DNA of 64,000 nucleotides, from positions 124,001 through 188,000 of the forward strand of contig NZ_BMHH01000006.1 in assembly GCF_014640615.1 (NCBI RefSeq), written 5' to 3'. A program made the translations under genes and the position numbers. The notes under the pieces are model-generated. The model searched no databases and had not been told where the DNA came from. It was given only the letters and a program-made list of their open reading frames with translations. The stretch comes from Paramesorhizobium endophyticum. GTDB taxonomy: Bacteria; Pseudomonadota; Alphaproteobacteria; Rhizobiales; Rhizobiaceae. Positions 25,389 to 34,900 of the stretch are shown here, piece by piece; the stretch's first letter is position 1; each line of letters opens with the position of its first letter.

Positions 25389-25463
25389 GCGGGTGTAGCT
25401 CAGGGGTAGAGCACAACCTTGCCAAGGTTGGGGTCGAGGGTTCGAATCCCTTCGCCCGCTCCA
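25389..25463 (+). tRNA. tRNA-Gly (anticodon GCC), island integration site
   Basis: Acceptor GCGGGTG pairs with CGCCCGC; the anticodon stem CAACC/GGTTG encloses TTGCCAA, giving anticodon GCC; T-arm GAGGG TTCGAAT CCCTT; CCA is encoded at 25461-25463. The last 46 bases, from within the anticodon stem, form the left copy of a 50 bp direct repeat, so the integrated element restores an intact tRNA at this end. Confidence 0.97.
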
Positions 25464-25467
25464 GTTT
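25418..25467 (+). repeat. attL-type direct repeat (tRNA-Gly copy)
   Basis: A 50 bp stretch identical to 34851-34900, beginning CTTGCCAAGGTTGGGG in the anticodon arm and ending CTCCAGTTT just past the CCA. Identity stops sharply on both sides (AAC against TCG upstream, TCT against CTC downstream). Confidence 0.95.
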
Positions 25468-27932: not shown

Positions 27933-29171
27933 TTATCCTGCGTAAGCGCGATCCAGCGCGTCGATAGCCACATCGGCATTGCGAACGGCTTGTGTGTAAT
28001 GGCCGAGCGTCACTGTCGGATTCGCATGACCGGCGATCTGGGCTACCAGCCCAATTTCGATCCCCTGTGCTTGCAGCGTCGAGATGAAAGAATGCCTCGC
28101 GCTGTGCGGGGTAACGTAGGGCAGCCCGATCCTTTTGAAAGCAGGTTGCCAATAACGCTTACGGAAGTTTTGATAAAGGAGTGGTCCGCCGCCGCCAATC
28201 CGTGGCTGCGGCCATTCTTGTAGCCGCCCCGGTCCCGGAAAAACGCGGTGCAATTCCTTGCCTTTGCGCGGGCAACGGAGACGCCATGCGAGAAGCATTT
28301 CACGTAATACGCTGCTCATGGGAATATCGCGGGTTCCGGCCTCCGTCTTGGTCATTTCGGTCAGTGAACCGTCGCGTTCTTGGATACGACGTATGCGGAT
28401 GATATTTTTATCGAAGTCCACTTCTGACCAGAGTAGCCCCAGTTGTTCGGATGGGCGCGTACCGGCGAGAAAGGCGAAGGCGTAATAGACGCCGTGTTCC
28501 GGGTCATCCTTTGCGGCATTGATCAGCTTTGTAATGTGCGCCGAGGTCAGGATGGCCTTTTTGGCCTTATGCCGGGATCGTGCCAACCCAGTCGGCATTG
28601 AAGGGGCACGAATGCCAAAGTCCTCCTCCGCCATCGCCAGAATGGACTTAAGATGGGACTTTGCCCTATTGGCGGTATAGGCACCGCATTGGTCCACGAT
28701 TGCTCGATGCCAAATGCGGATCGTCGCGGTCGTAAGGTCCGTCAGCTTAATATCGCCGAGCAGCTTGATGAACCGGGCATTCTTTGGTGCAATGCCGCTT
28801 TCGGTATAGTCCGCTCGCTCCTGTTTGGTGCCGACCAATAGAGGGCCACGGAGCGCGCCGTTTGCCACCACCTTGTACCCCTTCAATGTGGAGGATTTGA
28901 CCTTATCCTCTTTGTCCGCCAACCAATGATCAATGGCTTGCCCGACTGTTGGAGCAGTCCGAGCATCGACATAATTGCCGTCAGCAAATTTCAGAAGAAG
29001 TTCGAGCTTGTAGGCTTCGGCGTCCTTTTTACGTTCCTTGGCGCGGCGAATTCGTTTGCCAGTCTTGGGGTCGCGGAAATTTACGTACCATTGTGGGTAC
29101 GAGGCAATGGTGCCATCCTGCAATTTACGACGGCGTGTTGTGCTCGTGATGGATATCTTGAAGTCGTTCAT
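27933..29171 (-). CDS. Tyrosine recombinase (integrase) of the island
   Basis: A 412-residue integrase. The N-terminus has an arm-binding-like segment (TIASYPQWYVNFRDPKTGKRIRRAKERK), followed by the core-binding SAM-like domain (about 72-180) and the catalytic domain. Catalytic residues visible: Arg239 (GTRPSEQLGLLW), Lys275 (TKTEAGTRDIP), His356 and Arg359 (PHSARHSF), His382 (GHANP) and the nucleophile Tyr392 (LGHYTQ). All are present, so it should be active. Start MNDFKISITS at 29171; a longer frame to 29228 cannot be excluded. It presumably recombines the tRNA-Gly repeat, although it lies 2.5 kb from the left att copy and 5.7 kb from the right one. Confidence 0.95.
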   Translation of the reverse strand: MNDFKISITSTTRRRKLQDGTIASYPQWYVNFRDPKTGKRIRRAKERKKDAEAYKLELLLKFADGNYVDARTAPTVGQAIDHWLADKEDKVKSSTLKGYKVVANGALRGPLLVGTKQERADYTESGIAPKNARFIKLLGDIKLTDLTTATIRIWHRAIVDQCGAYTANRAKSHLKSILAMAEEDFGIRAPSMPTGLARSRHKAKKAILTSAHITKLINAAKDDPEHGVYYAFAFLAGTRPSEQLGLLWSEVDFDKNIIRIRRIQERDGSLTEMTKTEAGTRDIPMSSVLREMLLAWRLRCPRKGKELHRVFPGPGRLQEWPQPRIGGGGPLLYQNFRKRYWQPAFKRIGLPYVTPHSARHSFISTLQAQGIEIGLVAQIAGHANPTVTLGHYTQAVRNADVAIDALDRAYAG

Positions 29172-29460
29172 TTCATTGCTCGCGTCAGAGAAAAAATGGC
29201 GAGAAAAACACGGCAAAGTAACCGGCACAATTAATCGTCAATTGTTCCAGAAGAACTTCGTAGCGGTTCAAATTGTAACCACGCGCGTAACCTCAGCCGT
29301 TCTGAAGGGACGAGACCGCGTACAAACGCGGCCTTGAATATCTTGGATTCCGCCCTCACTGAGGTTGAAATCGTTCAATGTGACGCCGTGGTGCTGGTGA
29401 CGGCAGCACAGAGGTTCAGCCTCATATCCTAGGGGGGAGTACCCCTTATGGGGTTCGGTT

Positions 29461-31674
29461 TCAGAATCGACGCGGTTTTTCTGCACCTTCTAGGGCTTCG
29501 GAGGTGATGCGAACTTTTCGGCCTCTCCGATCTTTTTCGAGGAACTCCACGCTTATTCCCGCCTTTGCCATCGCTGGTCGAAGCCGCGTGAGATGAGATG
29601 ACAGGTGGGCAGGCGTTTTGGGAAGGTTCGGATCGTTTGCCGCATCTATCTCCGCAAAAAGATCACCAATATATCCCTCAAATGGCTGATTGGATGTGAG
29701 CTGGCGAAGTTTAATAACGAGGCTGTCGTTGTTTATACGGTCAACGAATACATCGTCCTGTGCATCAACAATGGCTTGTACCAATGTACCGGGTGAAAGC
29801 TTTAAAGCTGGTTCAGCAGCCATTAGCCATTGGGCGGCATCAGCCATCCGAAGATTTCTGGGTGGCTCTGTATTTGCCAAATTGTTCAGCGCAGATGATA
29901 CGGCGTCATAGAGAACCCCCAGAACTTCGGGCATAATATCCTTCAGTTCAGCAAGCAGTTCGCCTTCGGTTTTCCTGCTGGTATGGCCCATCGGTTGAAG
30001 CCGGATAGGAATACCACGCTCCAACAAGTCGGGTCTGTTCGCATACCCAGAGATACCGTTGATGACAAAAGGTCGGGCGAACGACATTACATGAAGTTCA
30101 CCGTCGGTATAAAGCTTACGCACAGCAATCCCACCGCCAGTTGCCAAGACACACAGGGCGTCCGACATGTCCGCCTTCATTCCAGAGGCATTGTCAAAAT
30201 TGAGAAGCCAAAATTCTTTGGCGTGAATCATCAAATCACGATCGTTATCTGGAAGGCGCAATCGCGAAGCTCTGTTCGGATCAATCATCATTTTTACAAT
30301 GTGAGCGAACAAGCTTTTACCCGAACCCTGCTCTCCCTCGATCAGAAGGATGAAATATGGTCCCGTTGGGCGTAAGGCATTGAGCAAGAAGCCGAGCAGT
30401 AGATAAAATCCTTGCTCGTCGAGGCCCAGCAATCTCTGTAATCGGTAGATATCACCCCCGCGTGTCGCTGCGGGGACCACTGAAAATCCACTACCTCGTA
30501 TAAACTTGAAAGTACTGGTATGGGTAAAATGCCAACCCTCACCCGTGATGGAGACGATTCCCTCGTCCGACACACCTCTATCAATCTCGATGCGAATGTG
30601 ATCACCCGCAACACGGCTATACACTGTCTTTAATGGACCGTCATAAATGGCAAGCGTCTCAAGCGTTGCTATGGCTTCATACAATGGCCCCGTTCCGACA
30701 GGCTTCTCCAGTTGTTTAAATGCCTCTCCCCGCAGCCACGACCCAAACCGACTTGACTTTACTGGAAGGGTTTCTGCAACGGCATCGTTGGAAAATGTCG
30801 CAAAAGCTGTTCCGTCCCTGTCATGAAACAGTTCCACTTTGCGTCGTGCGAGTGATACCAGACGTGACGCGATAGTTTCATTTTGGTTCTGCTGGGCTGA
30901 CGTTTCGAATCCATTTTTACGAGCCGATGCTAGCCATTCAGGCAACTCTTTAAGTGAATTCCCTTCATAGTTAGCAGGCAGTAATCCCGCAAAAATCGAC
31001 TGAACTTCGTCATCGGTAGCACCTGATCGTACGAGGATGGCTGCAAGTGAAACCCCTGCATCGTGTGTCGCCGTACCGGAGATCAAGGTCACTGCGTGTT
31101 CCGAGCCAATAGCCGCTTTCAGGATATTGATGTCTCGTTCCGTGAGGCGCGGCAAGGTTTCCAAATCGACATCAAGTATAGAAACGCCCGCAATCGTATA
31201 TGGTTGATCAGTCTCTGGATGTATTGATGGTGGCATGACCGTCATCTTGCCTGCAGCAAGAAAGTCGATATTTCCAAGCCCGCCACCGCCTTTAAGAACG
31301 GTCGATTTCAGATCGTGCGGTGCAAGCGCAAATATCGTCTTACCTTTCTTCCCGCTTTTACCCGAAAGAACTGCACGACAAATTTCAGGGTTCAAACCAA
31401 GATAGTGCAATGCCAGATTAATGTGGCGATCATCGTCAAGGTCTAATGCTACAAGAACCCAATCAGGGTTCACCCTATGCCCCAAAAGCAAGCCAATACC
31501 GTGGTCGGCATACTTGGCCAGCCACTCTTTACGCTTTAAATCGTTGGGAAGCGCAGATAGATTCCCCTGCCATCCCTCCATAGGGGGGCGCTTTGTTCGG
31601 AACTTAATTGGAACAACAGAGAAGCCCCTTTCCCAGAACTTATTGGCCTCATTGGCGAAAATGTTCTTTCTCAT
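29461..31674 (-). CDS. Prim-pol / SF3-like ATPase replication protein
   Basis: A 737-residue replication protein. The N-terminal bifunctional primase-polymerase (archaeo-eukaryotic primase type) domain, about 1-170, has the acidic motif VALDLDDD (75-82) and NIDFLAAGKMTVMPPSIHP (135-153). A central linker is followed by a P-loop ATPase/helicase domain with Walker A GEQGSGKS (447-454), a Walker B-like LLNFDN after EFW and an arginine finger region. Such fusions initiate replication of satellites and plasmids. Its ATG overlaps the stop of the upstream HTH gene by 4 bp (ATGA), so the two are translationally coupled. Codon usage is noticeably more AT-rich than chromosomal neighbours. Confidence 0.88.
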   Translation of the reverse strand: MRKNIFANEANKFWERGFSVVPIKFRTKRPPMEGWQGNLSALPNDLKRKEWLAKYADHGIGLLLGHRVNPDWVLVALDLDDDRHINLALHYLGLNPEICRAVLSGKSGKKGKTIFALAPHDLKSTVLKGGGGLGNIDFLAAGKMTVMPPSIHPETDQPYTIAGVSILDVDLETLPRLTERDINILKAAIGSEHAVTLISGTATHDAGVSLAAILVRSGATDDEVQSIFAGLLPANYEGNSLKELPEWLASARKNGFETSAQQNQNETIASRLVSLARRKVELFHDRDGTAFATFSNDAVAETLPVKSSRFGSWLRGEAFKQLEKPVGTGPLYEAIATLETLAIYDGPLKTVYSRVAGDHIRIEIDRGVSDEGIVSITGEGWHFTHTSTFKFIRGSGFSVVPAATRGGDIYRLQRLLGLDEQGFYLLLGFLLNALRPTGPYFILLIEGEQGSGKSLFAHIVKMMIDPNRASRLRLPDNDRDLMIHAKEFWLLNFDNASGMKADMSDALCVLATGGGIAVRKLYTDGELHVMSFARPFVINGISGYANRPDLLERGIPIRLQPMGHTSRKTEGELLAELKDIMPEVLGVLYDAVSSALNNLANTEPPRNLRMADAAQWLMAAEPALKLSPGTLVQAIVDAQDDVFVDRINNDSLVIKLRQLTSNQPFEGYIGDLFAEIDAANDPNLPKTPAHLSSHLTRLRPAMAKAGISVEFLEKDRRGRKVRITSEALEGAEKPRRF

Positions 31675-31907
31675 CGTGCGCTCCCCGTTTTGGAAGCATC
31701 AATGGCTGCAACAACTTCTGACAGGCGCACCAAAATACGGCTGTTGAATGGGGTATATGCTGGGATCGCGCCATTTTTAATGGCGCGTCTTAAAGCCCAC
31801 GTATGCACACCGAGGGCTGCGGCAGCGGTGGCAACGGTGAGGAACTTTTCGGCAGGAATTCCATTGATCCCCTTACCGATGTTTGGGGATGAAGTTTGAT
31901 TTGTCAT
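31671..31907 (-). CDS. Small HTH protein, AlpA/excisionase-like
   Basis: A 78-residue protein with EKFLTVATAAAALGVHTWALRRAIKNGAIPAYTPFNSRILVRLSEVVAAI: a winged/MerR-like helix-turn-helix (excisionase or AlpA DNA-binding type) in which a helix-turn-helix is followed by N-S-R-I-L-V-R-L-S-E. It is coupled to the prim-pol gene by an ATGA overlap. In satellites and small integrative elements this position is usually taken by a regulator of replication/excision; the role here is inferred. Confidence 0.82.
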   Translation of the reverse strand: MTNQTSSPNIGKGINGIPAEKFLTVATAAAALGVHTWALRRAIKNGAIPAYTPFNSRILVRLSEVVAAIDASKTGSAR

Positions 31908-31994: not shown

Positions 31995-32774
31995 TTACCT
32001 TAGGGGTACCGGTAAATTGAGATCAAGCGGCGGAATATCGCCGGGGTCTTGTAAAATTAGCCGCCTCATTTCAGCTAATGGAAAATCACGCTCACGATAA
32101 ACCATGCGCAGCCCGGCATAATTTTGGTCGGCCTCTTTCCTGAAATCCAAGAAGTGTTCGAACCACTCCAAATCCCAGTCCACGGGTACCGTGCGGTTGA
32201 TGATGCCTTTGATAAGTTGTTCGACTGCAAATTCTGCTTTTCCACGTCCTCCTCTCCCCTCGTAGAAGCGCAGCAAGTAATGAGCCAGCCAACGCTTATG
32301 GTCTCCGCTCCGCTTACGGACCTTATCCCCGCCAGCTTTAGCCGATCTTTTGCGGCCTACATCTGAGGTCTGGAAGTACAAAAATTCGACGGTTCCCGCC
32401 GCACTGCAAAATGACCCCCACATTTTCATGAATGCGGGTGTCAAAATTCGATTCTCAAAATAATGGGTTAAATCTGGGATAAGGCGCTTTGCTCGCTGGA
32501 TACGATCATTTATTTCGTCTTGATCGAGCGCATCAACGTAAGGGAGTAAGTTCCAAGCTCGAACAACTTGGCCAACATCCTCATCTTCCCATCTGGGCGA
32601 TTTGTCTCGCCATTGTCCGTTGCTTAGCTTTTCCCCAATCGCCTCTTCTTCAGTTTCAAGCCGCATGGTTTCAACGAAATCACGCAGATGGTGGAAGCGG
32701 TCTGTCAACTCGCCCCATAACGCTACATTGTCTTGTTGTTTTTTCGGAAGCGCATCGTTTTCATCAATCTGCAT
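31995..32774 (-). CDS. Unassigned island protein (259 aa)
   Basis: MQIDENDALPKKQQDNVALW begins a mostly helical, charged protein with no signal peptide or membrane segment. Tryptophan-rich patches (SNGQWRDKSPRWEDEDVGQ; PVDWDLEWFEHFLDFRKEAD) and a basic stretch (VGRKRSAKAGGDKVRKRSGDHKRW) suggest nucleic-acid or protein binding, but no family is recognised. It lies 87 bp upstream of the HTH gene on the same strand and probably belongs to the replication transcript. It is divergent from the TIR cassette. Confidence 0.75.
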   Translation of the reverse strand: MQIDENDALPKKQQDNVALWGELTDRFHHLRDFVETMRLETEEEAIGEKLSNGQWRDKSPRWEDEDVGQVVRAWNLLPYVDALDQDEINDRIQRAKRLIPDLTHYFENRILTPAFMKMWGSFCSAAGTVEFLYFQTSDVGRKRSAKAGGDKVRKRSGDHKRWLAHYLLRFYEGRGGRGKAEFAVEQLIKGIINRTVPVDWDLEWFEHFLDFRKEADQNYAGLRMVYRERDFPLAEMRRLILQDPGDIPPLDLNLPVPLR

Positions 32775-33146
32775 ATTGGATTCTCGTGCGATTAATGTTT
32801 TGAAGGGACCATATTATCAATGCCAGTCCCTCCCCTCGCGCCGCGTGGGGCTGCTCCCCGGTCGTCGTCACAGGCGTCACAGCGCCACATGCTAGCTGGA
32901 TTGGCCGACTTAGTCACGCGGCCCCATGCCCGCGTGGCCACCGCCGCCACACAAAAGAAGGCAAGTCGCAACGGTCGGGAACGGAAGCATATGACGGTAG
33001 TCAAGCCCGCTTGGTGCAGTCACCTCCAAAGCAGATATCTAAGGGCTTGAAGCTGTATATTCATTTTCGAATCTGACATTACGATATCGGGGAATGCCCT
33101 TAACAGATAAAACTAAAACCCACATTGCTTCGGGCAAGGAGGATAA
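32775..33146. other. Divergent intergenic region before the TIR cassette
   Basis: 372 bp between the 259-aa gene and the TIR gene. It contains a GC-rich block at 32820-32960 unlike the AT-rich surroundings, with a perfect stem CACGCGG/CCGCGTG (32915-32921 with 32930-32936). The last 90 bp are AT-rich and end in the strong ribosome site AAGGAGG before the TIR start. Short ORFs here (76 and 70 codons) have no support. It presumably holds promoters for both directions. Confidence 0.4.
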
Positions 33147-34109
33147 ATGCCGAGCGTCTTCTTTTCATATTCGCATGCGGACGAAGGGCTTAGAGATCAG
33201 CTCGAAAAACAGCTATCGATGCTCAAGCGACAAGGCGTAATCGAAACTTGGCACGACCGGCGCATCGGAGCCGGACAGGAAATAGGCCTGGCGATTGACG
33301 ACCATATTAATACCGACGACATTATCCTCCTTCTCATCAGTGCTGATTTCATCGACTCGGACTACTGCTACGACATCGAAATGCAGCGTGCGATGGAGCG
33401 TCATGAAAAGGGGGAGGCCATTGTGGTCCCGGTTATCCTCCGAGCCAGCGATTGGCATCATGCTCCGTTCGGGAAACTAAAGGCGGTGCCTTTGGATGGA
33501 AAACCGATCACGCAGTGGCCGGACATCGATGAAGCTTTTCTGCAGGTAGCGAAAGCAGTCCGAGAAGCGGCTGAACGCATGGGCGGCACGGTTACAGCTT
33601 CGTTAAGGCCGGTCAGCGCGGCCTCTATTTCAGTGGTTTCTCAGGTCGTCGGCGCGCGGTCGAGTAATCTACGGATGACTAAGGCATTTACCCAGAGAGA
33701 CAAAGATCAGTTCAAACACGACACGTTTGAATATATCGCCCGCTTCTTCGATAATTCGCTCAGGGAACTCGGCGCGCGCAATCCCGGTTTCGAGGGTGTC
33801 TTTCGGCAGGTGGATGCCAACAGGTTCTTCGCTACGATATATCGTGACGGAAAGGATGTGGCACGGGGCACCGTCTACATGGGAGGAGAAGGGTTGGGAA
33901 GGGGGATCAACTACGTTCACGGGGAGACGACTTCGAGTAACTCTATGAACGAGTCCCTAAACGTCGAGGCTGATGATCAGGCGCTCTATCTGACAAGTTT
34001 AGGCATGGCTTCGTATGGGCAGGACCGTTTTCGGAAGCTATCACAGGAAGGAGCCGCTGAACTGCTTTGGGGCGTTCTGATTCGGCCATTACAGGGTTCC
34101 AACTATTAG
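33147..34109 (+). CDS. TIR-domain protein with unassigned C-terminal domain
   Basis: A 320-residue protein, start at 33147 with AAGGAGG at perfect spacing. Residues 1-150 are a bacterial TIR domain: VFFSYSHADEGLRDQLEKQL, KRQGVIETWHDRRIGAGQEI, DDIILLLISADFIDSDYCYDIEMQRAMERHE, and VVPVILRASDW. Glu78 in YDIEM is in the position of the NAD-cleaving glutamate of catalytic TIRs. Residues about 180-320 (DTFEYIARFFDNSLRELG; FFATIYRDGKDVARGTVYMGG; LLWGVLIRPL) form a separate, probably alpha/beta domain I cannot name. TIR proteins of bacteria act in anti-phage defence by depleting NAD+ or making signal nucleotides. Upstream gene of a two-gene cassette at the right end of the island. Confidence 0.9.
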   Translation: MPSVFFSYSHADEGLRDQLEKQLSMLKRQGVIETWHDRRIGAGQEIGLAIDDHINTDDIILLLISADFIDSDYCYDIEMQRAMERHEKGEAIVVPVILRASDWHHAPFGKLKAVPLDGKPITQWPDIDEAFLQVAKAVREAAERMGGTVTASLRPVSAASISVVSQVVGARSSNLRMTKAFTQRDKDQFKHDTFEYIARFFDNSLRELGARNPGFEGVFRQVDANRFFATIYRDGKDVARGTVYMGGEGLGRGINYVHGETTSSNSMNESLNVEADDQALYLTSLGMASYGQDRFRKLSQEGAAELLWGVLIRPLQGSNY

Positions 34110-34117
34110 GAGAACGC

Positions 34118-34582
34118 ATGCTATCACCAAATGAGTTTACTGTTGGCACATTTGCGAGCGCCACGCCCTTAAGTCTAATTCTGCCCCGTGTAAAATACGA
34201 GGAAACCGTATTGGTCGGCCATATCGATAGCGTGGCGATGGCGGTATTTCTATCAGGATCATATGCCTTCGATTTCTTCGAAAGCGCGAATGAAAACTGG
34301 GGTGGTCTTATTATCCCGAATGTTCGGATTGAGGTGGATGAAACCGACCTTTTTAATCCGGATCAAACCGGGGCTTCCTTGGGAACTGTCATCCGAAAAG
34401 ATACACGGTTAATTATACGGGCGAGGCGCGAGCGTTTTTCCGGCCCATCAACCGAGATTACACTTCACGATGGCCTCGCGTCAGCTGAAGAGCTTCGGGC
34501 GGGTTTCAATAAATGGCAGGTGGTCATCGGCGAAGGGCTATCCAAACGTGTGCTTTGGCGAACACCGGAAAACCTAACATAG
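34118..34582 (+). CDS. Unassigned partner of the TIR protein
   Basis: A 154-residue protein, MLSPNEFTVGTFASATPLSL, starting 8 bp after the TIR stop with AGGAGA in the gap: clearly the second gene of an operon. It is soluble and beta-rich (LILPRVKYEETVLVGHID; IIPNVRIEVDETDLF; TRLIIRARRERF; KWQVVIGEGLSKRVLW). No signal peptide, membrane helix or enzyme motif seen, and no family recognised. It could be an inhibitor, sensor or specificity factor of the TIR enzyme (inference from pairing only). Last gene before the right att copy. Confidence 0.82.
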   Translation: MLSPNEFTVGTFASATPLSLILPRVKYEETVLVGHIDSVAMAVFLSGSYAFDFFESANENWGGLIIPNVRIEVDETDLFNPDQTGASLGTVIRKDTRLIIRARRERFSGPSTEITLHDGLASAEELRAGFNKWQVVIGEGLSKRVLWRTPENLT

Positions 34583-34850: not shown

Positions 34851-34900
34851 CTTGCCAAGGTTGGGGTCGAGGGTTCGAATCCCTTCGCCCGCTCCAGTTT
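34851..34900 (+). repeat. attR-type direct repeat (tRNA-Gly 3' fragment)
   Basis: A perfect copy of 25418-25467. It holds the anticodon loop, variable region, T-arm and acceptor 3' strand of tRNA-Gly but no 5' half, so it is not a functional tRNA; it marks the right boundary of the integrated element. Confidence 0.95.

Follow-up and report, generated by a model that had tools for sequence, protein, structure and literature searches.

The gene pair and its integrated element

The window, i.e., the whole 64,000-nucleotide stretch of Paramesorhizobium endophyticum DNA that was analysed, carries two adjacent forward-strand genes, both starting with ATG. The first (33147..34109, +) encodes a TIR-domain protein of 320 aa and is preceded by the ribosome-binding site AAGGAGG (33136..33142, +); the second (34118..34582, +) encodes a protein of 154 aa, all-beta and without a known family, hereafter called the partner. 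The genes are separated by 8 bp (34110-34117), and the ribosome-binding site of the partner gene, TAGGAGA (34107..34113, +), overlaps the TIR stop codon. The ORF coordinates confirmed the two reading frames and the spacing given in the original prediction, and the strong ribosome sites that it claimed for both genes are present. The annotated start of the partner is backed by its M1, which was common to the 21 rows of its alignment; the alignment leaves out the broken homologues of loci L009 and L040.

The pair occupies the right end of a 9.4-kb integrase-bearing element, as its final two genes. The integration target is an intact tRNA-Gly(gcc) gene (25389..25463, +), found by ARAGORN and Rfam. 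One copy of a perfect 50-bp direct repeat (att) lies within the tRNA 3' end (25418..25467, +), and the other lies 268 bp past the partner stop codon (34851..34900, +). The reverse strand of the element encodes a tyrosine integrase (27933..29228, -; Pfam Phage_integrase, 2.6e-18), a 737-aa Prim-Pol primase/replication protein (29461..31674, -; Pfam Prim-Pol, 2.2e-16), an HTH_17 regulator (31671..31907, -; Pfam HTH_17, 1.7e-6), which we take to be AlpA-like by role, and, divergent from the TIR gene, a 259-aa protein (ORF 31995..32774, -) to which no function was assigned and for which no family scored above the cut-off in Pfam, PADLOC and a further family scan. The G+C content was 0.49-0.56 within the element vs 0.59-0.63 outside. 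The repeat, the G+C step and the integrase, Prim-Pol and HTH_17 genes bear out the earlier description of the pair as terminal cargo of a tRNA-inserted element. Rfam detected only the tRNA in the element, and promoter and terminator scans yielded no more hits than in shuffles.

No empty integration site was found among three congeners; both flanks were present in one of them alone (G001). In that congener, about 9.1 kb of other DNA lies between the same tRNA-Gly gene and the right flank (L196, 7590-16680), which gives the tRNA-Gly site the look of a hot spot for integration.

Domains and family of the TIR protein

The TIR protein is present as a single gene copy in its own genome. Residues 4-118 matched Pfam TIR_2 (E 2.6e-14). 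The TIR domain covers approximately residues 1-146 and contains Glu78; a low-confidence linker (residues 149-166) leads to a predicted C-terminal alpha/beta domain (approximately residues 172-320) composed of a helix, six strands and a helix. Glu78 is aligned with the Glu that follows the W/Y-C motif of solved TIRs. We take that Glu to be the catalytic residue of TIRs, hence Glu78 is the candidate here. All 53 aligned proteins, the window protein among them, have this residue; near-duplicate, truncated and frameshifted sequences had been excluded beforehand (L014, L023, L026, L034, L041, L047, L050, L058 and L059). The TIR fold and the conserved Glu expected of a TIR NADase are present in the window protein, so the predicted TIR domain with Glu78 held up, and loss of the glutamate was not seen in the alignment.

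The PADLOC model of ThsB, a Thoeris protein (PDLC00420, 1-316 of 319), matched residues 1-316 of the 320 in the TIR protein with 463 bits (E 9.6e-140), and a full-length match was obtained for all 53 aligned TIR proteins. Because the match runs end to end, the TIR protein belongs to a known, defence-labelled family with its C-terminal domain included, which refutes the earlier statement that this domain is unassigned. A profile of the C-terminal domain found no match among PDB sequences, and the structural-neighbour (VIA) list for the TIR model covers residues 1-146; what is said here of the C-terminal domain is therefore limited to predicted strands and helices.

The partner protein

The AlphaFold model of the partner is all-beta, with a pLDDT of 94 and a pTM of 0.88. 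Searches of Pfam, PADLOC and NCBIfam gave no significant family match; in PHROGs the E values were 0.14 or worse, a tail fibre family being among these (E 0.41); and the PDB, searched by sequence and by structure, gave no significant match and no clear structural relative. The partner was also rejected as a known phage protein: tblastn found 0 matches in 50,697 phage records, none was confirmed in IMG/VR, and no BFVD fold match was significant. The original view of the partner as belonging to no recognised family agrees with these family, PDB and AlphaFold-based fold searches. The TIR protein likewise had no match in the 50,697 phage records, and IMG/VR contigs contained four TIR relatives, of which two are full length and 46% identical.

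The suggestion of a new TIR system is partly supported: the partner is a small protein for which no described family was found, and none of the usual TIR companions was seen, whereas the TIR half is already catalogued with Thoeris, in PADLOC as ThsB.

Pairing of the two genes across genomes

From a genome collection of which 80 loci were kept, 59 relatives were counted (L002-L060), the TIR-domain-only relatives L061-L081 being excluded. In 22 of these 59, the TIR gene was immediately followed by a partner homologue. A profile search of ORFs of at least 60 aa in the fetched loci recovered the same 22 and none further at E < 1e-5. The hosts of the pair include Rhizobiaceae, Phyllobacteriaceae, Caulobacteraceae, Sphingomonadaceae, Erythrobacteraceae, Lysobacteraceae and a Verrucomicrobiota MAG. 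After the partner, the next largest clusters of neighbouring genes comprised 5 loci, and no other neighbour was widely conserved.

Genome-wise profile searches, in which the best nine candidates at most were scored per genome, detected the partner in 10 of 394 same-family genomes, while a TIR match of at least 300 model positions was found in 15. Eight of these 10 genomes, the own one counted, have the TIR gene adjacent to the partner, a count that is not independent of the locus count since the two sets overlap and several genomes look shared. The other two, both without TIR, carry a partner fragment (G050) and a divergent orphan (G743; profile E 5e-17). In a class scan of 385 genomes, the partner was found in one, the own genome, again among the best nine candidates at most, and PDLC00420 matched in 16.

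Plasmids gave the same arrangement. The TIR gene was upstream of the partner in 5 of 6 partner-bearing plasmid records, pNGR234a included (three opened, two judged by coordinates); the sixth, an Ensifer plasmid (L163), holds a remnant without TIR. The TIR records on plasmids numbered 34, of which 15 were opened, one of them naming only a 'hypothetical protein'. In a Sulfitobacter plasmid record the gap between TIR and partner was about 240 bp, and a second record showed the same spacing by coordinates. The Sulfitobacter locus (L161, 4817-10769) places a distant TIR (34% identical) before a partner 54% identical to that of the window, followed with a 4-bp overlap by a 1438-aa protein whose start appears NTPase-like by eye; the arrangement reads as module shuffling.

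The TIR gene and the partner are a two-gene unit, conserved in order, carried on mobile DNA in many bacteria, and the unit is probably a phage-defence module. The satellite-like element might instead serve general stress or mobile-element maintenance, with the pair as a passenger, and the place of the pair as terminal cargo of an integrase element would suit this; however, the pair recurs in varied settings, on plasmids and in genomes with different neighbours, which makes such a function highly improbable. A role outside defence has also been weighed, with the TIR protein as an effector directed at eukaryotic hosts. Many carriers are rhizobia, and PumA of P. aeruginosa is reported to target TLR adaptors and UBAP1 (PMC5494471). 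Against this, marine, sediment and cyanobacterial genomes also contain relatives, as do plasmids, and some of these relatives have defence genes beside them; the pair is also cargo of an integrase element. We consider a host-directed effector very unlikely.

One-sided dependence and apparent loss of the partner

A TIR tree of 53 rows was built by a quick method and rooted at the midpoint; 22 of its rows carry the partner and 31 lack it. The partner label changed 5 times on this tree vs about 17 times in shuffles. A gammaproteobacterial branch of ten rows lies inside the partner clade and lacks the partner except at one Pseudoxanthomonas locus; this absence looks like partner loss, though the branch was drawn open. 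Glu78 is kept in the TIR proteins without a partner. The co-occurrence that had been predicted therefore stood as a conserved adjacent unit, but not as an obligatory one, with the TIR gene alone in the 31 rows.

The partner was frameshifted or cut short beside an intact TIR gene at four loci (L002, L009, L040 and L146), and the opposite case, a broken TIR frame beside an intact partner, was seen once (L059). At three loci, traces of the partner were found with no TIR gene: G050 (L145) and the Ensifer plasmid have the fragments mentioned above, and G743 (L144) has the divergent orphan. The last of these homologues (L144, 6641-7105) adjoins a ribonucleotide-reductase-like gene, named by eye. The dependence between the two genes is one-sided: the TIR gene is often alone, and the partner is seldom found without it.

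These observations bear on the idea, raised originally as an immunity factor, that the partner is an inhibitor that would hold the TIR NADase off until phage disturbs it, in the manner of a toxin-antitoxin pair. The tight operon with its overlapping ribosome site, the conserved adjacency, the broken TIR frame of L059 and the three TIR-less traces are all in keeping with such a protein. However, a toxin-antitoxin pair should show the partner wherever the toxin is kept, and more than half of the tree rows keep an intact Glu78 with no partner. Moreover, the TIR gene is intact at all four loci with a broken partner, whereas an antitoxin that is needed should not be the first to decay; draft-assembly errors may explain part of these cases, and with such small numbers the immunity-factor idea loses some ground only. 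We rate an inhibitor as unlikely. Dispensability of the partner could equally reflect a minor or decaying function.

Divergence of the two proteins was compared at 20 of the 23 paired loci, the window included and L009, L040 and L059 left out. Mean pairwise identity fell from 76% in the TIR domain to 66% in the C-terminal domain and 41% in the partner. Pairwise distances of the partner and of the TIR protein were correlated (Mantel r 0.87, a value reached in 0 of 2000 shuffles); taken separately, the C-terminal domain gave 0.85 and the TIR domain 0.79. The rapid change of the partner is what a component facing phage proteins might show; plain co-inheritance also predicts such a correlation between TIR and partner distances.

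Search for ThsA and the genomic neighbourhood

No ThsA was found among the element proteins with Pfam (7 proteins) or PADLOC (4 proteins), and the same scans of element proteins gave neither a SAVED match nor a cyclase. The window gave no match for a SAVED, Ago or retron companion, and these were rejected; the original remark that no ThsA, cyclase, SAVED or Ago partner is visible was borne out for the element proteins scanned. The ThsA model PDLC00407 had no match in the own genome (a search for SIR2-type ThsA whose control was recovered in 2 of 14 genomes). Among 23 genomes, the own and 22 with the partner, 8 had matches to it at E <= 0.001, all partial and none extending past model position 240 of 478. 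STALD was found neither in the own genome nor in any of 50 genomes, and these searches were uninformative because the control likewise rang nowhere.

At the 22 paired loci, 111 neighbouring proteins of at least 180 aa were scanned and the 25 commonest of 113 families considered. Two proteins matched the ThsA model weakly (best 6.3e-12), two matched SIR2_2 and two matched Dsr1; we infer that these are the same proteins. The commonest families also include PDC-S04, AbiE, Dsr1 and reverse-transcriptase defence models, with no background count for comparison. For the partner-less loci (L014, L034, L050, L058, L082 and L083 excluded), 122 of 131 neighbours of at least 200 aa were scanned, nine large ones being out; the 25 commonest of 285 families include type I restriction and Mads genes, again with no background count, and because only these were considered a ThsA at one or two such loci could be hidden.

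Other small genes accompany the TIR gene in other branches, none matching the partner profile. A family of 101-103 aa lies directly upstream of TIR relatives (L046, 9690-9998; L052) or about 51 bp downstream (L048, L050) and is a candidate for another small partner. A protein of 72-82 aa with a similar shared C-terminal ending lies downstream of the TIR gene in L043, L045, L053 and L055. In three related Devosia-type loci (L032, L034 and L038), an ORF that appears NAD+ synthetase-like by eye starts about 65 bp after the TIR gene; its position may be due to chance or may be NAD-related.

The ThsA searches bear on a Thoeris-like mechanism, in which the TIR protein would make a cyclic ADP-ribose signal to which the partner or a distant effector responds. 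The PADLOC label of the family is ThsB, and ThsB proteins make signalling nucleotides that activate ThsA (PMC11204291). The ThsA model, however, was without a match in the own genome, no neighbour other than the partner was conserved beyond 5 loci, and the partner is small and all-beta with no enzyme family match. On balance such Thoeris-like signalling appears improbable, if still worth weighing.

Proposed mode of action

The most economical reading is a self-contained sensor-NADase with an added accessory partner; it accommodates the conserved pairing and gene order, the one-sided dependence, the invariant Glu78, the mobile setting and the failure of the searches to find ThsA. On this reading, which we favour tentatively and put just short of an even chance, the TIR protein would be a ThsB-family defence protein that acts without ThsA. 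Its C-terminal domain would sense a phage cue or serve as an assembly platform, and the N-terminal TIR domain would then consume NAD+ via Glu78, stopping the infection. In one lineage, mainly of Alphaproteobacteria, the TIR gene would have gained an operon partner, the fast-diverging small beta protein, which would most likely be an accessory sensor or adaptor in physical contact with the C-terminal domain, widening or tuning the trigger.

A bolder version of this reading is possible but doubtful: the pair would be a distinct two-gene immune system in which a small, rapidly evolving beta protein of new fold gates the C-terminal domain of the TIR protein and recognises phage products directly, as a receptor subunit that can be detached and replaced. 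Related TIRs would, in this equally doubtful extension, dispense with the partner, replace it or lie behind a retron. If the partner of the favoured reading is indeed a receptor or adaptor, the pair on pNGR234a (Sinorhizobium fredii NGR234, NGR_RS31315/31310) and the single TIR genes of Pseudomonas, among others, offer a ready comparison for phage sensing.

Comparison with known systems

The pair was found undescribed in the accessible parts of a mainly open-access literature on Thoeris, two-gene TIR systems, PumA, type VI retrons and NGR234 (including PMC8565338, PMC13142454 and PMC5494471). It resembles Thoeris in that its TIR protein belongs to the ThsB family by a full-length match, and differs in that the window has no adjacent ThsA, none was found in the own genome, and a 154-aa beta protein stands in its place; a classical Thoeris system was rejected on this account. 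Glu78 is thus kept in a TIR family listed as ThsB although no ThsA was detected, and one lineage of this family travels with a partner that diverges much faster than the enzyme. This suggests that a ThsB model match is not enough by itself to call a Thoeris system.

Single-protein TIR defence of the SpbK type (PMC12847820) offers another likeness, a TIR NADase that works by itself and does its own sensing; by analogy, this is likely the working mode of the partner-less relatives. Unlike SpbK, the window protein did not have the PADLOC spbK model among its matches up to E 1. The TIR part also scored against the SAVED_TIR model of CBASS TIR-SAVED systems, but over residues 3-133 only, and neither SAVED nor a cyclase is among the element proteins scanned.

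Type VI retrons provide the remaining comparison. The window itself has no relative of the RT or HTH genes (tblastn, E 1e-3), whereas on Pseudosulfitobacter, Celeribacter and Microvirga plasmids a full-length TIR relative begins 19-79 bp after HTH and RT genes (L175, 2789-4966; L176, 2789-4966; L183, 2724-4960), the first two operons being near-identical. The Pseudosulfitobacter and Microvirga RTs match RT_VI, and the Pseudosulfitobacter HTH protein matches HTH_VI; five other HTH-RT operons, opened from among 67 plasmid RT records, are without TIR. The TIR relative is possibly the effector of some type VI retrons, with two independent cases at hand, and together with the other small genes that accompany the TIR gene in other branches these cases suggest a TIR module that keeps exchangeable company.
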